Of a DNA stretch of 64,000 bases, positions 36,391 to 48,410 are shown piece after piece (position 1 is the stretch's first letter; every line of letters begins with the position of its first letter). Position numbers and translations under genes: made by a program. The DNA is from Leucobacter sp. 7(1) (GTDB lineage: Bacteria; Actinomycetota; Actinomycetes; Actinomycetales; Microbacteriaceae). The stretch covers positions 62,001 through 126,000 of the forward strand of contig NZ_FUID01000002.1 of assembly GCF_900163635.1 (NCBI RefSeq). The letters are read 5' to 3'. The notes beneath the pieces were generated by a model. The model did not search any database, had not been told where the DNA came from, and worked only from the letters and a program-made list of their open reading frames with translations.

Positions 36391-37725
36391 TTACTGCGCC
36401 AGCGCATCTCCGATCACGCCGAGCGCAACGGAGATCTGCTCGTTTGTCACTGTCAGCGACGGCAGGAAGCGCACAACGTTGCCGTAGCTTCCCGCGGTGA
36501 GGAGGAGCACGCCCTGCGTCGCCGCATACGCCGCGATCTCCGTTGCCAGACCCGCGAGCGGCGTCGTGGAGCCCGGGGCGACAAGCTCGAAGGCGATCAT
36601 CGCGCCGTGCCCGCGAATGTCCCCTATCACCTCGTGGGTGCTGGCGAGCTCCGCCAGCCCCGATACGAGCGCATCCTCGATTCTGGCGGCCTCTGCGAAC
36701 GGGGCACCGGTCTCGAGCAGGTCAAGCACCGCGTGTGCGGCAGCGATCGACACGGGGTTTCCGCCGAAAGTCCCCCCGAGTCCGCCAGGCCCGGCGGCGT
36801 CCATGATTTCGGCGCGCCCCGTGACGCCTGCCAGCGGTAGCCCGTCCGCGATTCCCTTCGCGGTGAGCACGAGGTCCGGCACGAGGCCGAACAGCTCACT
36901 CGCGAACCAGGTCCCCGTGCGGCCCAGGCCCGCTTGGATCTCGTCAGCAATAAACACGACGTCATTCGCCGTGGCCCACTCCTGGAGCGCCGGCAAGTAG
37001 CCCTCGGCCGGGACGACAAAACCGCCCTCGCCCTGGATCGGCTCGGCAATGATCGCGGCGAGGTCCGCAGCCCCGATACGCTGCTCCAGGTACTCGATCG
37101 TGCGCGCTGCGGCTTCGGCCCCGGACAGACCGTCACGCAAGGGATAGGAGTTGGGAACCCGCTGTACGTCAGGCGCGAACGGGCCGAATCCCGTGCCGTA
37201 GGGTGCCACCCTGTGGTTCATTGCCATCGTGAGGCTTGTCCGACCGTGGAAGGCATGATCCAGCGCCGCGATCACTCGTTTCCCGGTGTGGGCGCGAGCA
37301 ATCTTGACCGCGTTCTCGACGGCTTCAGCGCCGGAGTTCACAAAGAATGTCTTCTTTGCGTGGGCGCCCGGGGTGTGCTCGGCAAGCCGTTCCGCAAGCC
37401 GCACGTAGTTCTCATACGGGGTGACGGTGAACAGGGTGTGACTTACGCGGTCAAGCTGCGCCTTCGCGGCAGCAACGACTGTCGGCTGTGTGTGTCCCAG
37501 GGTTGTCACGCCGATCCCGGATCCGAGATCCAGCAGACGGTTGCCGTCAACGTCGGTGAGCCACGCGCCGTCGGCGTGCTCAATGTAGATCGGGAGGGCG
37601 CAGCCGACTCCCCGCGGTACCGCCTGCTCGCGCCGCGCGTGAATCTCACGGCTCTTCGGACCCGGGAGTTCCGTCACGAGTTCGGGGCGCTGCAGCGCTG
37701 CCAGATCTTCAGCGATGAGTGTCAT
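36391..37725 (-). CDS. gabT: 4-aminobutyrate-type transaminase (class III aminotransferase)
   Basis: 444-aa PLP enzyme converting 4-aminobutyrate and 2-oxoglutarate to succinate semialdehyde and glutamate, or a close omega-amino substrate. Signals are FVNSGAEAVENAVKIARAHT, AEPIQGEGGFVVPA, FIADEIQAGLGRTG and the PLP lysine in LTAKGIADGLPLAG. AAAGGA lies about 8 nt before the ATG. It lies 77 bp downstream of a co-directional MocR regulator, and GabR-type MocR proteins often control gabT. Confidence 0.93.
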   Translation of the reverse strand: MTLIAEDLAALQRPELVTELPGPKSREIHARREQAVPRGVGCALPIYIEHADGAWLTDVDGNRLLDLGSGIGVTTLGHTQPTVVAAAKAQLDRVSHTLFTVTPYENYVRLAERLAEHTPGAHAKKTFFVNSGAEAVENAVKIARAHTGKRVIAALDHAFHGRTSLTMAMNHRVAPYGTGFGPFAPDVQRVPNSYPLRDGLSGAEAAARTIEYLEQRIGAADLAAIIAEPIQGEGGFVVPAEGYLPALQEWATANDVVFIADEIQAGLGRTGTWFASELFGLVPDLVLTAKGIADGLPLAGVTGRAEIMDAAGPGGLGGTFGGNPVSIAAAHAVLDLLETGAPFAEAARIEDALVSGLAELASTHEVIGDIRGHGAMIAFELVAPGSTTPLAGLATEIAAYAATQGVLLLTAGSYGNVVRFLPSLTVTNEQISVALGVIGDALAQ

Positions 37726-37801: not shown

Positions 37802-39172
37802 CTAGGGCGCAGTGTGGCCGTGTCGAACCGGGATCGGCTGCGCCGCCGTTTCGCAGGCCGCCGCGAGATCGTCGGCGAGCCGTCGCATGTCCTCGGGAGC
37901 GAGGTCATGCACAGTCAAGCGCAGGGCACGGTGGTGCTCGCCCTGCAGCCCGAAGCTTGCGCCGTCGCGCGCAATCCAGCCGCGGCGCATCAGCTGGGTG
38001 AGCACGTCCCCCGCATTGCGCTGCGTATCAACCCAGACGTTCAAGCCGTCACGGCTCGTGGAGCTCAGGCCCACCGCGCCCAGGCACTCCTGGAACACTG
38101 TGTTGCGCTCGGCATAGAACGCACTCGCGTCCTGGATCCGCTGCTGTGTCGCCGGATCTGCGAGGAGCGCGTGAGTGATGCGCTGGATCAGATGACTCAC
38201 CCAGGTGATGCCGCCGCTAATCCGAGTCGCGAGGCGCTCCGCGGTTTCGGGGTCGCTCGCGAGCAGGGCGATCCGCATATCTGGTCCGAGCGCCTTCGAC
38301 ATTGACCGCACCAGCGCCCAGCGCTGCTGCTGCGCGCCGATGATTGTCGCGTACGGGGCACGGGCCAGGAGCGCAAAGTGGTCGTCCTCGATCACGAGAA
38401 CCTGCGGGTAGGCCGCCAGCACCTCGCGAAGTTCGGCGGCGCGCGCCGCCGTGAGGCTCGCGCCGGTCGGGTTGTGCGCACGAGGGGTGCAGACAACCGC
38501 CCGAACGCCGCTCTCGAGCGCGTCACGTAGGCTCTCGGGCCGCATACCCGCTGCGTCAATCTGGACGGGCACAGCGCGGTACCCGTTCTGCCGGATCGTG
38601 CTGATACTCGTGAGGAAGCAAGGATCTTCGAGCGCGACCGCGTCACCTGACGCGAGTGCCTGTGCAAGCAAACGCTCGATCGCGTCGACCGCACCGGCGG
38701 TCACGGTGAGCGCGAAGGGCCGCGGCTGATCTTCGGCAAGCCAGCGGGTCGCCCACTCGGCAAGGTCGGGATCCACTGTGGCCTCACCATACAGGTGCGG
38801 CACGGTGGCGCTCAGGCGCACGCTCGTCGGGTCGGGCAGGAAAGCGGGTGCGGGGTTCCCGTCCCCCACATCGCGGAGCACAGTGTCCTGCGCAAACCCC
38901 TCCTCGTCGAGCTCCGCGAACGGATCAACGATGACGGTGCCGGCGCGCCCACGGGTCTCGGCGAGATTCGCCTGCACAAGTGCCCGGTACGCCGCAGAAG
39001 CTGTGTTTCGGTTCACCCCCAGCGTTTCCGCGAGGGCACGCATCGGGGGCAGCGAGTCACCCGGGCGCAGCATCCCGTGGTCGATCAACTCGCGGATGCT
39101 GCCGACGATTTCCTCGACGCTCGCGCCGGAGATTCCGAGCGGTGCGTCACGGCCGATTGCGTGATCCGACAT
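37802..39172 (-). CDS. MocR-type regulator (PdxR/GabR-like)
   Basis: 456 aa from ATG 39172, chosen for AAGGAGA 7 nt upstream. The GntR winged helix (residues about 15-85) contains MLRPGDSLPPMRALAETLGV, NRNTASAAYRALV; the aminotransferase-like domain has VICTPRAHNPTG-type region (VCTPRAHNPTGASL), VLVIEDDHFALLARAP and the PLP lysine in RSMSKALGPDMRIALLA. It is upstream of gabT and divergent from alanine racemase. The conserved element over the racemase start lies in its divergent promoter region, so it may be that element's regulator. Confidence 0.9.
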   Translation of the reverse strand: MSDHAIGRDAPLGISGASVEEIVGSIRELIDHGMLRPGDSLPPMRALAETLGVNRNTASAAYRALVQANLAETRGRAGTVIVDPFAELDEEGFAQDTVLRDVGDGNPAPAFLPDPTSVRLSATVPHLYGEATVDPDLAEWATRWLAEDQPRPFALTVTAGAVDAIERLLAQALASGDAVALEDPCFLTSISTIRQNGYRAVPVQIDAAGMRPESLRDALESGVRAVVCTPRAHNPTGASLTAARAAELREVLAAYPQVLVIEDDHFALLARAPYATIIGAQQQRWALVRSMSKALGPDMRIALLASDPETAERLATRISGGITWVSHLIQRITHALLADPATQQRIQDASAFYAERNTVFQECLGAVGLSSTSRDGLNVWVDTQRNAGDVLTQLMRRGWIARDGASFGLQGEHHRALRLTVHDLAPEDMRRLADDLAAACETAAQPIPVRHGHTAP

Positions 39173-39244: not shown

Positions 39245-39273
39245 GCCATGTTATTCTTTGTCCTATGACAATG
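39245..39273 (+). promoter_or_regulatory. Start-codon-spanning regulatory element, copy A (alr)
   Basis: Begins GCCATG, includes an extended -10 (TGTTATTCT, hexamer TATTCT) and ends in the perfect inverted repeat TTGTC-CTAT-GACAA at 39258-39271. The ATG at 39265 starts within the repeat, consistent with a leaderless transcript and repression at the start site. Confidence 0.7.
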
Positions 39274-40371
39274 CAAATTCGCGGCGCGTCGCCAGCAACC
39301 ACGCCACTGCGTGTCGCCGAAATCTCGCTCGCCGCACTGCGGCACAACGTGCGCGCACTCCGACACAGCGGGGCCCGCGTGATCGTTGTCGTCAAGGCAA
39401 ACGCCTACGGCCACGGTGCACACCTCGTCGCACCCGAGGTCATCGCCGCCGGAGCCGAGATGGTAGCCGTCGCGAGCCTGGACGAGGCCCTCGCGCTGAG
39501 GCAACACGGAAGTACAGCTCCGATCCTCTGCTGGCTTCACGAACCCACCTTCGACGCCGCGGCAGCGATCGAGCACCGCATCGAACTCGGGGTCAGTAGC
39601 CCGGATCAACTGCGCCGAATCGCCGCAGCCGCGCTCAGTAGTGGCCGGCCGGCCACTGCGCAGCTGAAACTCGACACCGGACTCAGCCGGAACGGCGCGA
39701 GCCCGGAATCGTGGCGCGAGCTCGCTACCGCGGCACAGCACGCAAGCCACGCGGGCCTCGTGCGCATCACCGGGGTATTCAGTCACCTCGCAAACGCGAG
39801 CGCCGAGGCCGATCTTGCCCAGGCCGCCCGATTTGAGCACGGCCTCGCCGAGCTTGCTGCACTCGGAGTGCGGCCGCCTCTGCGCCACCTCGCCGCGTCG
39901 GCTGCGGCACTCTCCTCCCCCCACCTGCGCTACGACGCGGTTCGCGTGGGGCTCGCGGCCTACGGTCTCGAACCGGGTCCCGAGCGGAGTCCAGGCGGGA
40001 TCATGCTGCGCCCGGTCATGACCCTAGCCACCGAGCTCGTGGCAGTGCGGCGCGAGCGGCAGCCGCCGCTCGGGATCGTGCCACTCGGATACGCGGACGG
40101 TCTCCCCCGAGCATTGGGAGATCGCGGCATCACGGTCAGGGTACGGGGAGAGCGCGTCCCGATCATCGGCCAGATCGGCATGGATGAGTGCGCCGTGGCT
40201 CTCACGGGAGGCGCTGCGGCGGCGACCCCCGGCGACCGGGTGGTGCTCTTCGGCGACCCCGCCGTCGGGCACCCAGCCGTCGAGGAGTGGTCCGAGCAAC
40301 TCGGCACGATCAACTACGAGATCGTCGCACGCATCGGTCCTCGCGTGCAGCGGCGCACCATCGGACCATAG
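39265..40371 (+). CDS. alr: Alanine racemase
   Basis: 368-aa PLP enzyme interconverting L- and D-alanine for peptidoglycan. It has the PLP lysine motif VVKANAYGHG (about residue 40), RYDAVRVGLAAYGLEPG, and LGYADGLPRALGD, which holds the catalytic Tyr. ATG 39265 is chosen because the protein's family-typical sequence starts shortly after and the promoter element overlaps it. A bacterium normally has one essential alr with other wall genes; this copy stands alone with PLP-linked genes, which suggests a dedicated role. Confidence 0.95.
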   Translation: MTMQIRGASPATTPLRVAEISLAALRHNVRALRHSGARVIVVVKANAYGHGAHLVAPEVIAAGAEMVAVASLDEALALRQHGSTAPILCWLHEPTFDAAAAIEHRIELGVSSPDQLRRIAAAALSSGRPATAQLKLDTGLSRNGASPESWRELATAAQHASHAGLVRITGVFSHLANASAEADLAQAARFEHGLAELAALGVRPPLRHLAASAAALSSPHLRYDAVRVGLAAYGLEPGPERSPGGIMLRPVMTLATELVAVRRERQPPLGIVPLGYADGLPRALGDRGITVRVRGERVPIIGQIGMDECAVALTGGAAAATPGDRVVLFGDPAVGHPAVEEWSEQLGTINYEIVARIGPRVQRRTIGP

Positions 40372-40415
40372 CCGCGCAGCGCGCCATCGAACCATAGCCG
40401 CGCAGCGCGCCATCG
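40358..40415 (+). repeat. 26-bp tandem duplication across the alr stop codon
   Basis: Two 26-bp units differing by one base, plus six bases of a third (CCATCG at 40358, 40384 and 40410), span the alr stop. It extends into the 49-bp convergent spacer with the Fur gene. A recent slippage event is likely. Confidence 0.85.
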
Positions 40416-40420
40416 CGACG

Positions 40421-40855
40421 CTACGCCAGCTCCTCGGCGCACTCCGCACACAGGCCGCGGAACACAACTTCGACGGAACTCACGACCCCGAGCCCGGCGA
40501 TGTCGCCGTCGAGGCACGCACCCGTGACGTGCGCGCAGTCAACATCGACAACATGACCACAGCGGGTGCACTGGAGGTGATGGTGCGCATCCCCCACGCG
40601 TGTCTCGTACCGTGCGACGGCCGAGCCGGGGAGTTCGACCCGGCGCAGGAGGCCGGCCCGGGTGAGATCATTCACGGCGTTGTGCAGCGTTTGCAGCGAT
40701 GCCTGCGGGCCCGAAGCACCCAGGCAGAGCGCAAGCTCGGAGACCGAACTGTGCGGGGTGGCGTGCAGCGCCTCCCACACCCGGACGCGGGCTGCCGTGA
40801 CCCGGAGTCCCGCCTCACGAATGCGCCGCGCTGGCACTCCGTACCCCTCGGCCAT
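40421..40855 (-). CDS. Fur family metalloregulator
   Basis: 144-aa DNA-binding metal sensor. Winged helix LRVTAARVRVWEALHATPHS and LQTLHNAVNDLTRAGLLRRV; metal site candidates in DAHHHLQCTRCGHVVDVDC and the C-terminal CAEC pair (structural zinc). AGGAGG lies 5 nt upstream of ATG 40855. It is divergent from the unknown 274-aa gene. Which metal or signal (Fe, Zn, Mn, peroxide) cannot be read; a long upstream extension of the frame is noncoding. Confidence 0.93.
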   Translation of the reverse strand: MAEGYGVPARRIREAGLRVTAARVRVWEALHATPHSSVSELALCLGASGPQASLQTLHNAVNDLTRAGLLRRVELPGSAVARYETRVGDAHHHLQCTRCGHVVDVDCAHVTGACLDGDIAGLGVVSSVEVVFRGLCAECAEELA

Positions 40856-40890
40856 GTCCCCTCCTGTCCCGCGTACGCTCAGCCCCCACC

Positions 40891-40919
40891 GCCATGATAG
40901 CTTTTGTCCTATGACAATG
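40891..40919 (+). promoter_or_regulatory. Start-codon-spanning regulatory element, copy B
   Basis: Same layout as copy A: GCCATG 20 nt before the ATG, extended -10 (TGATAGCTT), then TTGTC-CTAT-GACAA at 40904-40917. Differs from copy A at four of 29 positions, all in the -10 region. Confidence 0.7.
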
Positions 40920-41735
40920 CGAGCATGGCGGGGGCGCGAATCCGAGCTCGGCGAAGCCCTCTTCCCGGACCTCACGGAGCGGAGCGCCGCCGCGGCCGAT
41001 CCGGCCGAATTGTGGATCACCACACAGACCCTGCGTCTGCGCGCAGGAGATTTCGGTGCCCGGCTCGCGAGCCACCCCGATCCTGAAAACCGGGCGGCGC
41101 TCGACGCGGGCTTCGCGGCCGCCGCTGCGCTCGCGGCGCGGTGCGGGATCCCCGTCCCCGACCCCGATGAGTTCTGGGCGGCGGGCGCACCGCCGCGCTT
41201 CCCTGCGCCTTCGGGCGCCACCCGGGACCTCGAACTGGGAACACGCTTCCTCCCCGTCCCAGCACCCCACGGGCTCGGGGCCCACGCGTGGCAGCGGGCG
41301 TTCGCCGACGGCTCGCTCGCCGATGATTTGGCCCTGAGTATGTCCTCGGAGGTTGTGCGTTGGTTCGCGGCGCTTGACGCACCCGCGTCGCGCCACACCC
41401 CGCGCCTTACCCGAGCAACGCCGCTCGGCCCCGTGCACTGGACCCTGCGCTGGGTCCCCGCAGCACCCGCGGCACCGCTGCTCGGTCACGCCCACAGCAC
41501 TGCGATGTCAACGAACTATCCGACACTCCCCGAGATGCTGCTGCTCCAGATCGCGCGCGCCCGCTGTGGAGCCGCACCACTTGACAAACACTCCTTCACC
41601 TGGCTCGCAGGCGAGCTGCCCGATACGCGGTTCGCGGCGCGACACGGAAGCGACATCGCCAACTACACCGTGCGTATCGGCACCCGCGAGCGCACCGATC
41701 AGGGGCCGCACATCGGAACGCGCCTCGCACACTAG
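40911..41735 (+). CDS. Hypothetical protein of the PLP-linked regulon, 274 aa
   Basis: Not recognised. No signal peptide or membrane segment. Features are Ala/Pro/Arg-rich sequence, LSMSSEVVRWFAALDAPASR, LGPVHWTLRWVPAAPAAPLL, and LPEMLLLQIARARCGAAPLD followed by a well-conserved-looking SFTWLAGELPDTRFAARHGS. The start lies in a regulatory element shared with alr and pyridoxal kinase. It is convergent with the VWA gene (4-bp overlap of ends) and divergent from the Fur gene. It may be a metabolic enzyme or enzyme accessory factor in the same process as the racemase and kinase; there is no sequence evidence for function. Confidence 0.75.
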   Translation: MTMRAWRGRESELGEALFPDLTERSAAAADPAELWITTQTLRLRAGDFGARLASHPDPENRAALDAGFAAAAALAARCGIPVPDPDEFWAAGAPPRFPAPSGATRDLELGTRFLPVPAPHGLGAHAWQRAFADGSLADDLALSMSSEVVRWFAALDAPASRHTPRLTRATPLGPVHWTLRWVPAAPAAPLLGHAHSTAMSTNYPTLPEMLLLQIARARCGAAPLDKHSFTWLAGELPDTRFAARHGSDIANYTVRIGTRERTDQGPHIGTRLAH

Positions 41736-43660
41736 GACCGGGCATCCGCCCGCCCCCGCGGCACCCCGGCGAGCGCCTCGGCAAGCGCCCCGGGCAGCTC
41801 GGAGACCCCCGTGACCCTGCGCACGCCATCGCCGAGCGCAGCCATACCCGGCGCGGATCCGATCCCGATGCCCACGAGCTCAAGACCGCGCGCCCGCATC
41901 TCTCCAACGACCCGCTGCAGCTCGGCCGGATCATCGCAGTCCCCATCTCCAATGAGGATCACAAGCCGCCGCGGCAGGCGACGCCGTGACCGCGCGTGCT
42001 CAGCGGCTCTCCCCAGTGGGGCGCCCAGCTCGACCGCCGCGGCCCGAAGCGCCGCGGCGGTGTCCGTCCGCCCACTCGCACCCCGCACCGCGGTGTGCAG
42101 CACAGCCCGTGTGCCCTCATCAACGGAGCGGCGCAGCGGGGCGATCACCCGCGGCGCCTCGTCGAACACAATCACCCCGGCGCGCACCGATGCTCCCACC
42201 GTGATCGCGTGCTGCTGTTCGAGGCGCGCAATATCTCGCGCCACAGCACCGAGCGACTCCAGCATCACGAGCCCCGCGTCGGCACACGCCTCGGACACGG
42301 GGCCCCGCATCGAGGCAGACCGGTCGAGCACGAGCAGGGCATCGACGCTGCCCCAAGCGTCACCATCGCGGGCACGCAGCGCGCGAGTGCGAAAGGCCGC
42401 GGGCCGGGCAATGCCCGCACGCACCTCGGTCACTGTCGTCGCGAGGCGCTCCGGGAATATGGCACCCCCCTCGGTTGCGGGCAACCGTGAGAACACTCGT
42501 CGGTGCCGCAGGCCGTGCGCCAGCACCGCACGCCACACCTCTCGGACCCGGGCGATTTCGGGGCGCAGGCGCTCGGCTCGGGCACGATACTCGCTGAGGC
42601 TCGCGTCCTCCACGCCGCGCTCGCGGCCGAGGCCAGATCCGGCCGCCCCGGGCGCGATGTCCCCTGCTGTCGCGGTAATCCCTTCGGGCAACTCTCCGCC
42701 GCCGATCGCGTTGCGGGCCGGAAGTGGCAGCTCGATGAGGGTTGTCGGCGGCACCTCGGACTGGATCTCGGTGAGCGCGGCGGGATCGAATTGCGCGGTG
42801 GTGCGCTGCGCCCCCGCAGCCGGCGCCTCGTCGGGAGATGGCACCTCCGCGTTCGTCATGTTCCCGGCGTCGCCCGAATTCAGCTCACCGGCACCCAGCT
42901 CAGAGGCGCCGGCACCGGAACTGTCTCCGAGCCCGAGCTCGGCCCCGTCCGCGGGCGGTGCTTCCGGCCCGAGCGCTGCGCTGTCGCCACGATCGGAGAG
43001 CCCTCGCCCCAACTGCGCACGGAGCCGCTGCAGCGGCGGCACGAGCACGGCGAGTGCACGATCGAGATGCTCGACTGGAGAGCGATCAGGCTCGCCCCCC
43101 AGGACTCGGCGCACCACATCCGCAGGAACTTCAGACTCCCGAGTGGGGTGGCCGCCGAGAAGTCGCGTAAGTTCGGCAGTCACCGGATCGTCGACGCGCA
43201 CAGACTCGGCACCGGCGCTCAGGCGCAGCAGCGCGCCGTTCCACTGCTGCTCGATCGGGCGGTCACGCAGATCCTCGGGCACACCGCGCAGCGTGGCGTC
43301 GCGGAGGCGACCCCGAAACCCCGGCATCGCCGCACACAGTTCGGCGCCGGCCTGCGCCCGTTCAATCACCGTGAGCAGGGGGTCAAGCTCCGGACAGCGC
43401 TCAGACAGCACGGCGCGTCGATGCGCGCGGCCGGGGGCCAGGCGCGGCGACCGGATCCCGGCCCAGAAATCGCGGAGGGCAAGCACCGCCGCATCCGCAT
43501 CGGTGATGCCCCGCACGCGGAAGTACCCGAGCCCCACGGTGACGCGGGTGGCCGTCAGCTCCCAGGTCTCGGATTCCGTCACCACCACGTCGAGCCCCAG
43601 GAGCCGGCCCGCGCTCCGGAGCTGCGCTTCGAGGGAAGACTGCGGCCTCATCGGGTCCAC
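41732..43660 (-). CDS. VWA domain protein, partner of the MoxR-type ATPase
   Basis: 642-aa protein with a C-terminal von Willebrand A domain (residues about 435-630) with a full MIDAS: DRSASM, the Thr of GRTDTA, and GDGDCDD. The N-terminal half is a helical region with a Gly/Asp-rich stretch around residues 210-330. Layout matches the VWA partners of MoxR AAA ATPases (CobT/BchD/NorD-like). Overlaps the ATPase gene by 13 bp. Such pairs remodel or load metals or cofactors into target enzymes; the target here is unknown. Confidence 0.88.
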   Translation of the reverse strand: MDPMRPQSSLEAQLRSAGRLLGLDVVVTESETWELTATRVTVGLGYFRVRGITDADAAVLALRDFWAGIRSPRLAPGRAHRRAVLSERCPELDPLLTVIERAQAGAELCAAMPGFRGRLRDATLRGVPEDLRDRPIEQQWNGALLRLSAGAESVRVDDPVTAELTRLLGGHPTRESEVPADVVRRVLGGEPDRSPVEHLDRALAVLVPPLQRLRAQLGRGLSDRGDSAALGPEAPPADGAELGLGDSSGAGASELGAGELNSGDAGNMTNAEVPSPDEAPAAGAQRTTAQFDPAALTEIQSEVPPTTLIELPLPARNAIGGGELPEGITATAGDIAPGAAGSGLGRERGVEDASLSEYRARAERLRPEIARVREVWRAVLAHGLRHRRVFSRLPATEGGAIFPERLATTVTEVRAGIARPAAFRTRALRARDGDAWGSVDALLVLDRSASMRGPVSEACADAGLVMLESLGAVARDIARLEQQHAITVGASVRAGVIVFDEAPRVIAPLRRSVDEGTRAVLHTAVRGASGRTDTAAALRAAAVELGAPLGRAAEHARSRRRLPRRLVILIGDGDCDDPAELQRVVGEMRARGLELVGIGIGSAPGMAALGDGVRRVTGVSELPGALAEALAGVPRGRADARS

Positions 43661-45138
43661 CGCACGCCCTGCCCCTCAAGGATCAGGGCGAGGGTACGCC
43701 GGTCTTCGGGGTGCATCACCCCGTCCGCAAAGCGGGTGAGCGTCGTGTGCAGCGCGTCTGCCGTGCCCTCGAGTGCGACCCGCTGCAGGAGCGCCACGAG
43801 GGTGCGCGGCGCGATCACCGTCTCGGCAAGCCCCGGCTCCTGATCGGCGCGCTGCTCCGTCGTGAGATAGCGCTCAAACCCCTCCCCGTGGTGACCCGAA
43901 AACACCTGCTGGCTCACAAACGCGGCACGGGCAACGAGCTCAATGTGCTCTGCGGACAGGCCAGTCGGGAGCTCGCCGAGATCCGTCGCGATTGCCGCCG
44001 TGGCGAGCAGGGCGTTGTCTCGCGGGAACTCCGTGTAGCCCCGGTCCGCGTCCGGGTAGCGCACCCGGAACGTGTTCGCGCCGAAGCGGTTCACGAGTTC
44101 CGCGCTCAGCGGTTCGATCCCCCGGTACCGGTGCGGAGCGTGCTCATTGGCTGTGGCGATGATGGTGAAGCCCGGGGCAATCCGGACGCGCTCGCCCGAG
44201 CCCTCCTGCACCGCAAATTCGGCACCCGGTCTGAGCTGCAGGATCCGATTGAGACGCTTCAGAAACTCCGCGGGCATCGCGTTCACTTCGTCGAGGATCA
44301 GCGGCCGCCCCTCCCGCATGGCGCGCAGCAGCGGGCCGGGTTCAAACACCGTCAACGTGGCCCCACGCTCACCGCGCAACTCGTGCGTGCCAATGAGCTG
44401 GGCGGCGGAGATATCGCCATAGCCGGACACAAACTCAGGCGGACGGCCAGTGCGCGTCGCGAGCGCCTCCGCGAGCGCGGTCTTCGCCCCTCCCGTCTCC
44501 CCGATGAGAAGCAGTGGTGCCCCCGAATAGAGGGCGGGGAGGGCGCCGCGAATCACCCGGCGCATCTGATCGCTGAGGAGCAGCCCGCTGCGCAGCTGCC
44601 GCTGCGCTTCCCGCACACGAAGCGCAGCGAGCGCGCTGGCCACCCCAGCGGGCAGCCGTCGCGACGTGCCGTCATGGGTGTCACCCGCCTCGGCGCCGAG
44701 CACCGCACGCTGTTCCGCGGGCGTCAGCGTGCGTCCGGCCGCGGCAGCGTGCGCGACGAGGGCCGCGGCGGCATCCCGCGCTTCCTCGGCGTGCATTTCG
44801 CGCCGGTGCTCAGCAACCGCCGCGCGCAGGATCCGCGCACGCTCAGTGAGCGCTCGGGGAAGCGCCCCCGCCACGAGCGCGGGATCGGCGGCGAGCGCGG
44901 TCAATCGTGCGCGAAGCTCGCGGGTGGCGGAAATCCCCAACCTGATCGCGTGAGTGAATCCCGCGCGCTCAGTGTCGCCGCCCCCGGGGTGCGCGAGCAG
45001 CCGCGCGAGCTCTTCGGGGACGCCGCCGGCCGCGGCCCAGTCGACACGAAGCGCGCGCTGCGTCTGCCGCAACTGCGTCGCGACCGTGCGGAGTTCCGTG
45101 AGGAGCGCCTCGGTGCTGAGCTGGACGTGCAGCATCAT
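43648..45138 (-). CDS. MoxR-family AAA ATPase
   Basis: 496-aa AAA ATPase. Walker A GETGGAKTALAE (about residue 212), Walker B LILDEVNAMP, sensor region IIATANEHAP, and the linker segment NRFGANTFRVRYPDADRGYT. The N-terminal 170 residues are an additional alpha-helical domain (LRTVATQLRQTQRALRVDW), which most short MoxR proteins lack. It overlaps the DegT gene by 4 bp upstream and the VWA gene downstream. Confidence 0.9.
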   Translation of the reverse strand: MMLHVQLSTEALLTELRTVATQLRQTQRALRVDWAAAGGVPEELARLLAHPGGGDTERAGFTHAIRLGISATRELRARLTALAADPALVAGALPRALTERARILRAAVAEHRREMHAEEARDAAAALVAHAAAAGRTLTPAEQRAVLGAEAGDTHDGTSRRLPAGVASALAALRVREAQRQLRSGLLLSDQMRRVIRGALPALYSGAPLLLIGETGGAKTALAEALATRTGRPPEFVSGYGDISAAQLIGTHELRGERGATLTVFEPGPLLRAMREGRPLILDEVNAMPAEFLKRLNRILQLRPGAEFAVQEGSGERVRIAPGFTIIATANEHAPHRYRGIEPLSAELVNRFGANTFRVRYPDADRGYTEFPRDNALLATAAIATDLGELPTGLSAEHIELVARAAFVSQQVFSGHHGEGFERYLTTEQRADQEPGLAETVIAPRTLVALLQRVALEGTADALHTTLTRFADGVMHPEDRRTLALILEGQGVRWTR

Positions 45139-46292
45139 GCCCCCGCCGCCATGACCGCGCTGACCCCCGCGACGATACGGTCGAGGTCACCCGCCGTGAG
45201 CGAGGGATGCACGGGGAGCGAAAGCACCTCGGCGGCGGCGCGATCGGACTCTGGAAGCTCGTGCGCGGGCGCGAATTGCCCCAGCGATGGCAGTCGGTGG
45301 TTGGGGATCGGATAGTACACGCCTGTCGCCACCCCGTGTTCGTCGCGGAGCGCCGCCCGTATGTTGTCACGTTCCGCGGCCGGAACGCGGACCGTGTACT
45401 GGTGATACACGTGCGTGGCCTCCGGGGCGATGCGCGGCACTGTCAGTCCCGGCAGCGTGGCCAGTTCCCTGTCAAAAAACGCGGCGTGGCTTCGCCGGGT
45501 GTGTGTCCAGTCGTCAACCTTGCGCAGTTGCACGCGTCCCACGGCGGCGTGCACATCACTCATCCGGGCGTTGAAGCCGATGACCTCATTGGCATACTGG
45601 GTCTCCATCCCCTGGTTACGGAGCAGCCGAAGCCGCCGCGCGGTCTCCTGCGTGCGGCACGACACCATGCCGCCCTCGATCGCGGTCATGTTTTTCGTCG
45701 GGTAGAGGCTGAACATCGCGAACTCGCCGAAGCTTCCCACGGGCTGCCCGTTCCAGCGCGCACCGTGCGCCTGCGCGGCGTCCTCAAAGAGGGCGATGCC
45801 GTGTTCCGTGGCGATGGCGTGCATCGCGTCGACCTGGAACGGGTGGCCGTACAGGTGCACCGGCATCACCCCCGCGGTGCGCTCGGTAATCGCCGCGCGC
45901 ACCGCGGCCGGGTCGAGCGTGAAGTGTGTGGGCTCGATGTCCGCGAACACCGGTGTAGCCCCGGTCAATGCGACTGAGTTCGCGACGGCGGCGAAGGTGA
46001 AAGAGGGAACGATCACCTCGTCGCCGGGGCCAATCCCGCTTGCGAGGAGGCCGAGGTGTTGCCCGCTCGTGCCGGAGTTCAGTGCGACTGTCGGCCGCCC
46101 CGCAACGAAGTGTTCCGAAAACTCACGCTCGAATGCAGCGACCTCCGGCCCCTGCGCGAGCATGCCCGAGAGCAGCACGTTGTGCACCGCGAGTCGTTCT
46201 TCGTGACCGATCAGGGGCTTGGCCGCGGGGATCAGTGTGGGTGCGGGAGCCGCTGCGGGATCCGCTATGGGGGTCGTAGTTGGGGGTGTCAT
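45135..46292 (-). CDS. DegT/DnrJ/EryC1/StrS family aminotransferase
   Basis: 385-aa PLP enzyme. ATG 46292 is chosen because GGAGG lies 7 nt upstream; an in-frame ATG at 46343 has none. Typical elements are ALNSGTSGQHLGLLASGIGP, VPSFTFAAVANSVALTGATP, FEDAAQAHGARWNG, and the PLP lysine in SLYPTKNMTAIEGGM. Enzymes of this family make amino sugars or amino cyclitols. Here it leads an operon with MoxR and VWA genes, divergent from pyridoxal kinase. Confidence 0.92.
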   Translation of the reverse strand: MTPPTTTPIADPAAAPAPTLIPAAKPLIGHEERLAVHNVLLSGMLAQGPEVAAFEREFSEHFVAGRPTVALNSGTSGQHLGLLASGIGPGDEVIVPSFTFAAVANSVALTGATPVFADIEPTHFTLDPAAVRAAITERTAGVMPVHLYGHPFQVDAMHAIATEHGIALFEDAAQAHGARWNGQPVGSFGEFAMFSLYPTKNMTAIEGGMVSCRTQETARRLRLLRNQGMETQYANEVIGFNARMSDVHAAVGRVQLRKVDDWTHTRRSHAAFFDRELATLPGLTVPRIAPEATHVYHQYTVRVPAAERDNIRAALRDEHGVATGVYYPIPNHRLPSLGQFAPAHELPESDRAAAEVLSLPVHPSLTAGDLDRIVAGVSAVMAAGA

Positions 46293-46338
46293 TGTGGTGC
46301 CTCCGCGTGTGTTCGAGTCGATCGCAAACTTTGTCACA

Positions 46339-46367
46339 GCCATGATAGCGTTTGTCCTATGTCAAAG
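46339..46367 (+). promoter_or_regulatory. Start-codon-spanning regulatory element, copy C (pyridoxal kinase)
   Basis: Same placement as copies A and B, with extended -10 TGATAGCGT and TTTGTC-CTAT-GTCAAA (one mismatch in the arms). It lies in the divergent region that also drives the DegT operon. A second TTTGTC is at 46330-46335. Confidence 0.65.
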
Positions 46368-47276
46368 ACTGGTCAGCTTGATCGCGTGTTCGGACAGAGC
46401 TCCGCAGCGCCGCCCCAGACGCCGCCGGGGAGGATCGCGCTGCGCGTTGCCGAGGCGTCCGCGCTGGAACTCGATCCACGTCCCGCTCAGATCCTGAACT
46501 TCGGATCGCAGCTCCTTCACGGCACGGTGGGCCTCCCCGCGAGCCGCCGCGTGACCGAGGCCGCTGGCGTGCGCACGATCGACATTCCCACGGTTCTGCT
46601 CAGCGTGATCCCGCATTTTGACGCGGTGCACCACCTCGACGTCCCGGCCGAGTGGATCGCACGAGCCCTGCGGGATCTCGACGGAGCCGGCGCGCTCAGG
46701 GAACTCCGGCTTGTCACCTCGGGCTACCTCGCGTCCCCCGCACAGACCGCGGCAGTTGCGGCCGCCGTTCGCTCCGCCGATTCGGAGATCCCGTTGCTGC
46801 TCGACCCCACGCTCGGGGACACCGAGCTTGGGTTCTACACCGATCCCGCACTCGTTGGAGCGCTCCGCAGTGAACTCGTCCCGCTCGCCACAGGGCTCAC
46901 CCCCAACCTGTTCGAACTGGCGCATCTCAGCGGCGCCCCGCTCGACTCGCTCACCTCACCCACCCCCATCGCCCGGGCCGCACGTTCGCTCATCACCGCC
47001 CGCACCCAGTGGGTTGTCGTGACAGGTGTGCGCTCCCCCGTCACGACAAGCGTCGGAGAGGTGATCGTCACCGCAACCGAGCACTGTGCGCACTGGCACG
47101 CACCACTCCGGACCAGCGCGAAGGGGCTCGGCGACACCTTCACCGCCGCCCTCGCGGTCGAACTCAGCGCAATGATGCCCGCGGTGTTTCCAGACCTTTC
47201 CCACCTCGCCGCCGCCGTGGATGTCGCTGCTGAGACTGTCCGGCGTGCCACCGCCCACCCCTACCCGCTCAGCTAG
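46359..47276 (+). CDS. Pyridoxal kinase
   Basis: 305-aa ribokinase-superfamily enzyme phosphorylating pyridoxal/pyridoxine for PLP salvage. It has ILNFGSQLLHGTVGLPASRR near the start, LRLVTSGYLASPAQ, LLLDPTLGDTELGFY, LTPNLFELAHLSG and the catalytic Asp in GLGDTFTAALAVE. Unusually, residues before about 45 are not part of the core fold. It is followed 9 bp later by serC. Confidence 0.9.
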   Translation: MSKTGQLDRVFGQSSAAPPQTPPGRIALRVAEASALELDPRPAQILNFGSQLLHGTVGLPASRRVTEAAGVRTIDIPTVLLSVIPHFDAVHHLDVPAEWIARALRDLDGAGALRELRLVTSGYLASPAQTAAVAAAVRSADSEIPLLLDPTLGDTELGFYTDPALVGALRSELVPLATGLTPNLFELAHLSGAPLDSLTSPTPIARAARSLITARTQWVVVTGVRSPVTTSVGEVIVTATEHCAHWHAPLRTSAKGLGDTFTAALAVELSAMMPAVFPDLSHLAAAVDVAAETVRRATAHPYPLS

Positions 47277-47285
47277 GAGACCCGC

Positions 47286-48410
47286 ATGACAATCACAATT
47301 CCGCGTCACCTCCTCCCCGCGGACGGCCGCTTCGGCAGCGGGCCCTCGCGGCTACGCCCGTCACAATTGCACTATCTGCGCCAGGCGGACCCCGGAATCC
47401 TCGGCACGTCTCATCGCCAAGCCCCGGTTCGTTCCCTCGTCGCGCGGATTCAAGAGCAACTTCTGACCCTCTTCCGAGCCCCGGCGGGCTACGAAGTTGT
47501 GCTCGGCAATGGCGGGGCCACGGCGTTCTGGGACATCATCACGTATGGTCTGATCGAGCACCGCGCCCAGTGCCTCGACTTTGGCGTGTTCGGCGGCCGC
47601 CTCGCCCGTGCCGCTGCGGCCCCCTGGCTCACCGCCCCCGATGTCCGCACTGCGCGACACGGTGAGCTCATTGCCCCCGAGCGCGTCTCCGGCATCGATC
47701 TCTATGCCTGGCCCGAGAACGAGACCTCGACGGGTGTCGCGGCCCCCGTCCACCGCGTCGCCCCCTCGATCGATGCGCTCACCGTGATCGATGCGACGAG
47801 TTCTGCCGGCGGCATGGAGTTCGATGCCGAACAGGTTGACGTCTATTACTTTGCCCCACAAAAGAGCCTCGGCTCGGACGGCGGACTCTGGCTGGCTCTG
47901 CTCTCTCCGGCTGCGATCGAGCGCGCGGAGCGTATTGCCGCGAGCGGCCGCTACATCCCCGAGTTCCTGAGCCTTGGCGCCGCCATCACGAACTCACGCA
48001 AACACCAGACAACAAACACCCCAGCCCTCGCTACGCTCCTCCTCCTCGAGGCGCAACTCGAGTGGCTGCTCGGACAGGGCGGACTCTCGTGGGCGGCGGA
48101 GCGCACCCGCAGGAGCTCACAGCTCATCTACGACTGGGCGGAAGCCAGCCCCATCGCCGCACCGTTTGTGGCCCGACCGGCGCACCGCTCGCCCGTCACC
48201 GCGACAATTGAAATCTCCCCGCGCGTGAGCGTGCGCGACCTCTCACGCACGCTGCGCGCCAACGGCATCGTCGATATCGATGCGTACAGCGGAATCGGGA
48301 CCAATCAGCTCCGCGTGGCCACCTACGTGTCGGTCGAGCCCGACGAGGTCGCCCGCCTCCTGACCTGCATCGATGAAGTATTCCCGAGGCTTGTTGAATA
48401 TGCGTGCTAA
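47286..48410 (+). CDS. serC: Phosphoserine aminotransferase-like enzyme
   Basis: 374-aa class V aminotransferase. It has [35 protein letters not shown], and the PLP lysine in [22 protein letters not shown] lies 6 nt before ATG. Length and GTSHR motif fit phosphoserine transaminase of the actinobacterial type. It shares an operon with pyridoxal kinase, which makes its cofactor. Confidence 0.93.

Follow-up and report, generated by a model that had tools for sequence, protein, structure and literature searches.

Three elements of the same make-up in a 64,000-nt stretch of the Leucobacter sp. 7(1) genome (the window) most likely each unite promoter, operator and start codon in a single site and belong to a vitamin B6 (PLP) regulon, with the MocR-family protein encoded at 37802-39172 on the minus strand as its repressor; we assign this reading a probability of about 0.8. 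Computed evidence backs it in the form of the element itself, the set of genes that carry it, its confinement to genomes with MocR, and its location next to the MocR gene in other genera. For B6 homeostasis in Leucobacter this yields a concrete candidate regulator with its operator and target genes, and would bring alanine racemase, the PLP carrier YggS and a functionally uncharacterised protein under the control of a single B6 sensor.

The elements lie on the plus strand at 39245-39273, 40891-40919 and 46339-46367. By sequence count, 23 of 29 positions are identical among all three, and ATGs at 39265, 40911 and 46359 stand 20 nt into the respective elements. Each joins a predicted extended -10 (TGTTATTCT, TGATAGCTT and TGATAGCGT, in that order) to an operator core (TTTGTCCTATGACAA at 39257-39271 in the first, 40903-40917 and 46351-46365 in the others), with the ATG of alr, of a gene for a 274-aa protein and of pdxK inside. 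Element 3 has a further box, TTGTCA, 21 bp ahead of the TTGTC in its core. A preliminary description of the window had reported this identity and ATG placement, which the sequence and the list of open reading frames confirm, and the combination of an extended -10 with a palindrome around the ATG, which likewise holds as a putative promoter fused to an operator. A 23-base pattern with up to three mismatches matched the window three times and 100 shuffles not at all. A common genome-wide promoter, the alternative for which that description had proposed a genome-wide scan, is not what the scan found: across 3.9 Mb in 106 contigs, TANNNTTTGTCCTATG with up to two mismatches gave eight matches (three exact, and five with one or two mismatches versus 15 for the reversed control), and all three exact matches are the window elements. 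We reject a generic promoter of this genome because matches are so scarce; the element also goes with MocR-bearing genomes, with one two-mismatch exception. One of the five inexact matches (contig C19, one mismatch) lies outside the window and opens yggS, the gene of a PLP homeostasis protein (TIGR00044, 176.8 bits; cut-off 106.25).

The gene that starts within element 1 is alr (39265-40371, plus strand), encoding a 368-aa alanine racemase, a PLP enzyme (TIGR00492, 260.2 bits; cut-off 168). Element 2 holds the start of the 274-aa gene (40911-41735, plus strand), for whose product neither Pfam nor NCBIfam gave a match at E≤0.001. Three minus-strand genes follow: a VWA-domain protein gene (41732-43660; Pfam VWA_2, 9.3e-09), its partner AAA ATPase gene (43648-45138; Pfam AAA_5, 1e-20), which we take to be of the MoxR type and which may be co-regulated from a divergent promoter, and a DegT-family aminotransferase gene (45135-46292; Pfam DegT, 1e-116). 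The last is divergent to element 3, as the preliminary description had it in placing that element in the spacer between degT and the kinase gene; the ATG at 46292, preceded by GGAGG, is a likelier degT start than 46343, which falls within the element. Starting within element 3, pdxK (46359-47276, plus strand) encodes a pyridoxal kinase-like protein of 305 aa (Phos_pyr_kin, 4.5e-17); among NCBIfam models a pyridoxal kinase matches it best, with 175.5 bits against a cut-off of 342. The phosphoserine aminotransferase gene serC (47286-48410, plus strand; a PLP enzyme; TIGR01366, 457 bits, cut-off 401.65) starts 9 bp past the pdxK stop, so the two genes probably form one operon. Directly downstream of the MocR gene and on the same strand is a 4-aminobutyrate aminotransferase-like gene (36391-37725), also of a PLP enzyme, and two tandem copies of a 26-bp unit, with one mismatch, run across and just past the alr stop codon (40358-40409).

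The MocR protein has the two parts that define its subfamily, a GntR-type wHTH (Pfam GntR, residues 20-81, 2.5e-15) and a fold type I aminotransferase domain (Aminotran_1_2, residues 126-435, 1.3e-22), both above cut-off. Its SxSKxL and EDD motifs align with those of MppQ (8tn2) and of an aminotransferase (2egy), and their lysine and aspartate are presumably the PLP-holding residues. The top NCBIfam match was PtsJ (NF012025, 531.5 bits); the cut-off of 573 was missed, so we name the protein PtsJ-like, not PtsJ. PdxR (NF052282) reached 155.8 bits of a required 320.

Allowing two mismatches, the pattern TGNTANNNTTTGTCCTATGNCA was found in 12 of 54 Leucobacter genomes (28 rows; one match for the reversed control). 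These are all 11 of the 54 that carry a MocR orthologue (E≤1e-60) plus G060, in which the match has two mismatches and a different ORF (169 aa) behind it. The hypergeometric probability of this co-occurrence, 1.3e-10, is overstated in that it ignores the relatedness of the genomes; those bearing the element may be related and would then stand for fewer than 11 independent events. The preliminary description had named two candidate binders, the divergent MocR and a Fur-family protein. The gene of the latter (40421-40855, minus strand; Pfam FUR, 8.1e-15) adjoins element 2 and is divergent to it, but its homologues (E≤1e-25) occur in 4 of the 11 genomes with both MocR and the element versus 26 of the 43 others, and identity of at least 71% is confined to G000, the window's own genome, and G015. 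This distribution does not track the element, which leads us to drop Fur as the binder, an extremely improbable one in our estimate. MocR, by comparison, is accompanied by the element in 11 of 11 genomes, and on these co-occurrence patterns the adjacent PtsJ-like MocR, not Fur, is very probably the protein that binds.

At 23 of the 28 rows a gene starts at the element's own ATG: yggS at 11, pdxK at 6, and alr, the 274-aa family and an amidotransferase at 2 each. The remaining five rows (three serC rows at two places, in G003 and G020; an orphan in G015; and the G060 match) do not enter the start-codon counts given below. Behind both amidotransferase genes the 274-aa homologue comes next downstream (the G020 amidotransferase scored 277.9 bits with NF005458; cut-off 250), and the same element precedes the 274-aa homologue of G015. 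An exact scan of the 11 genomes with MocR for the 11-letter core TTTGNCNTANGNCAA marked 26 distinct places: yggS 11, pdxK 5 (the deviating G053 site is missed by an exact search), alr 2, serC 2, the 274-aa family 2, amidotransferase 2 and unexplained 2. With 20 of 26 places at yggS, pdxK, alr and serC, and 4 at the amidotransferase and the 274-aa family, the PLP-linked regulon that had been proposed from the window is borne out. The reversed core gave six matches in total across the 11 genomes, so a few chance places are expected. One unexplained place lies before an integrase gene of the window's genome (G000 C56; Pfam Phage_integrase, 1.1e-16) and the other, at G015 C8:71714, is without an evident B6-linked gene. 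The integrase ORF (L154:1697-2680, minus strand) begins MTNELEA at a TTGTCCTATGACAAA site, much as the genome's own yggS begins MTNELDA, which may be chance or a captured start region; by eye, the G015 core (L155:1715-1730) lies at the end of a transporter-like ORF.

Membership of pdxS in the Leucobacter regulon was ruled out for the nine regions scanned among the 11 MocR-bearing genomes (G001 was left out and G059 had no pdxS match): the best score was 11 of 16 letters, and no operator was found. Six of these nine regions (L110, L112-L115 and L117) have a CCACTTT- or CCCACTT-type string near pdxS, perhaps part of another regulator's site.

Beyond Leucobacter, the operator sits next to the MocR gene itself. 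MocR (E≤1e-90) occurs in 54 of 396 genomes of the order, and loci were returned for 29 of the 53 matches outside the window's genome. The core TTTGNCNTANNNCAA stood, exact, next to the MocR gene in all 29, which come from other genera and families; the divergent side carries pdxS in 28 and yggS-alr in one (L079). A conserved operator by the MocR gene and before B6 genes, which we took as the mark of a MocR B6 regulon, was present at 29 of 29 loci and in 11 of 11 Leucobacter genomes. Counted by eye, TGNTANNN directly precedes the core in 27 of the 29 loci (it is shifted by one base in L093 and lacks TA in L097), and so constant a string might, besides any promoter role, serve as a binding box. 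At the pdxS loci the core is often TTTGGCCTAGGTCAA and has no central ATG in any of 28; the L079 core is TTTGGCCTATGCCAA, with an ATG in frame with yggS. For each of the 28 pdxS genes an in-frame start with an SD-like site, loosely defined, lies 34-137 nt past the first base of the core, the start at each locus being one picked among several listed, and these operators apparently precede leadered transcripts. A search of 84,980 species genomes with TGNTANNNTTTGWCCTATGACA returned 20 stretches: 8 from Leucobacter, 8 from Achromobacter and 4 others, the last with none of the reference proteins. Within the stretch examined, the Achromobacter set had yggS in 8 of 8, the amidotransferase in 5 and a MocR (about 46% identical) in 4; TGNTANNN was included in the search, so its presence there is not independent evidence. 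The DNA-reading head of MocR has (V/I)NRNT in all 16 rows shown of 44 aligned (Leucobacter, other Actinomycetales and Achromobacter). Between Leucobacter and other Actinomycetales, residues 40-68 are 67.8% identical; for the whole head the figure is 57.4%, no higher than the 57.8% of the aminotransferase domain.

At all 23 start-codon sites a TANNNT box ends 7 nt upstream of the ATG and no Shine-Dalgarno (SD)-like tetramer precedes it, the alr site included; TA and the final T belong to the search pattern, whereas the lack of an SD site does not. Such tetramers are found at 4 of 69 alternative in-frame starts listed, and three yggS sites permit weak anti-SD pairing (-2.4 kcal/mol). Just past the element, yggS codons vary mainly in the third position and encode a conserved P(I/V)H(D/N)FP in 11 of 11 genomes, a protein-like constraint that makes the element's ATG the likely true start. 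On these features yggS, pdxK, alr and the two further genes are apparently leaderless at the operator's ATG, which supports the leaderless start of the preliminary description.

In Leucobacter the operator centre reads CTATG; its T turns the centre of the palindrome into a start codon, and its ATG is the one used. The serC sites of G003 and G020 differ: the core is inverted, the direction of TG(T/C)TACACT is unchanged, and the likely ATG stands 67 nt past the first base of the core, behind GAAGGG. A flipped core with an unflipped -10 indicates that operator and promoter are separable, and the serC sites retain the core with serC starting downstream, so the element does not need the ATG. Together, the flipped and leadered cores suggest a palindrome that is a double-stranded DNA site, working with or without a start codon. 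They also bear on the idea that the element acts on mRNA, as a translation-start signal for the ribosome or an RNA-binding factor. The conserved stretch does take in the start codon and codon 2, but half of the palindrome would lie upstream of the proposed 5' end, and the flipped and leadered versions retain the palindrome with its ATG unused; we give this idea next to no credence. The element might instead be a strong constitutive leaderless promoter that has a preferred start context but no regulator of its own, since actinobacteria commonly have TANNNT promoters and leaderless starts (PMC3898074, PMC3160421). This is very unlikely, given exact matches at only three places in the genome, confinement to MocR-bearing genomes save for one two-mismatch match, the inverted core at serC and the leadered forms that precede pdxS.

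In the MocR-repressor reading, the extended -10 TGNTANNNT would drive transcription from the A of the ATG, yielding leaderless mRNAs, and a MocR dimer would bind the palindrome TTTGWC-CTAT-GACAA, which begins at the final base of the -10 and reaches into codons 2-3. A dimer bound there would sit over all of this, start point included, and exclude RNA polymerase. PLP-loaded MocR would be the repressing form, and PLP shortage would open yggS, alr, the 274-aa gene and pdxK-serC; for this we draw on analogy with PtsJ and on the expectation that genes for salvage and for the PLP carrier should be silent while PLP is plentiful. Direct binding by MocR, repression, the ligand and the mRNA 5' ends are steps that we infer. 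The same MocR might act at the same sites as an activator, or as activator or repressor depending on ligand. Activating MocR proteins, GabR and TauR, have been described (PMC6677901), and the core is accompanied, two helical turns upstream, by an accessory half-site: TTGTCA, 21 bp upstream of the core's TTGTC, at 6 of 6 pdxK sites and an inverted TGACA at the corresponding place of two alr and three yggS sites. Yet a core over the -10 end, start point and first codons is where a bound protein normally blocks polymerase, and PtsJ, the nearest relative that has a name, represses pdxK (PMC13353753). We consider activation unlikely and prefer repression; through the upstream boxes the same protein may act on the divergent gene.

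Comparison with relatives suggests that the Leucobacter layout is derived, the direction of change being our own reading of it. A leadered operator with a CTAGG centre before pdxS would have been retargeted and read as CTATG, thereby becoming its own start codon. The route may have taken one base, CTAGG to CTATG, after which a DNA-binding protein would dictate how unrelated proteins begin, in their first codons.

The 274-aa family is rare. Of 396 genomes of the order, one, that of the window, carries it at E≤1e-12, in two copies; it is also present in G003, G015 and G020. At E≤5 the window's protein has a single Pfam match (0.39), and a structure model from two sequences has a pLDDT of 33.7. 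A VWA gene adjoins the family in all four loci that reach that far (G000 twice, G015 and G003). In G000 C49 and G003 the AAA ATPase gene comes next after the VWA gene; in G000 C103 it lies close by on the opposite strand, and in G015 it was seen from the degT side. The second copy in the window's genome (G000 C103:38000-47000; L120) has VWA and AAA neighbours, and the core site is absent within the 9-kb stretch. Tentatively, and with considerable doubt, we propose that the 274-aa protein, the AAA/VWA pair and the amidotransferase could form a module for PLP supply or PLP-enzyme maturation under the B6 regulator, with the operators that lie between divergent genes controlling both sides. Within this regulon, alanine racemase would link cell-wall D-alanine to B6 status.

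MocR-controlled B6 regulons and operators over leaderless promoters are both already known. PtsJ of Salmonella is a MocR-family repressor, without which pdxK transcription rises about 80-fold (PMC13353753). Our regulator resembles it in its top NCBIfam match and in having a pyridoxal kinase gene among its targets, and differs in that the Leucobacter regulon adds yggS, alr, serC, the amidotransferase and the 274-aa family and has the start codon within the operator. PdxR regulons are described as including pdxK, pdxST, PLP-binding COG325 proteins and GuaA-family amidotransferases (PMC5320631, Suvorova and Rodionov 2016), and an abstract lists the YggS family as COG0325; PdxR regulons, treated there together with those of PdxW and PdxQ, thus share pdxK, COG325/YggS-type and amidotransferase members with ours. 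The operators combine direct and inverted boxes, and the accessory upstream boxes at the pdxK, alr and yggS sites fit the three-box MocR operators of the same source. Its main text contains neither the word Leucobacter nor the word overlap and has alanine racemase in a reference title only, while its supplementary tables may include the group. In the literature searched, subscription journals and supplements excluded, no title among the papers listed pointed to an earlier description of MocR control at leaderless genes, of MocR in Leucobacter or of the core letters. The repressor AcuR of Rhodobacter has a palindromic operator that overlaps the promoter of the leaderless acuR operon (PMC3017554), as our palindrome overlaps the promoter of a predicted leaderless mRNA; unlike MocR, AcuR is a TetR-family protein, acting on one operon at an operator reported as overlapping the promoter. 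What differs in Leucobacter is an operator centre that serves as the start codon across the regulon, and the membership of alr, serC and the 274-aa family.
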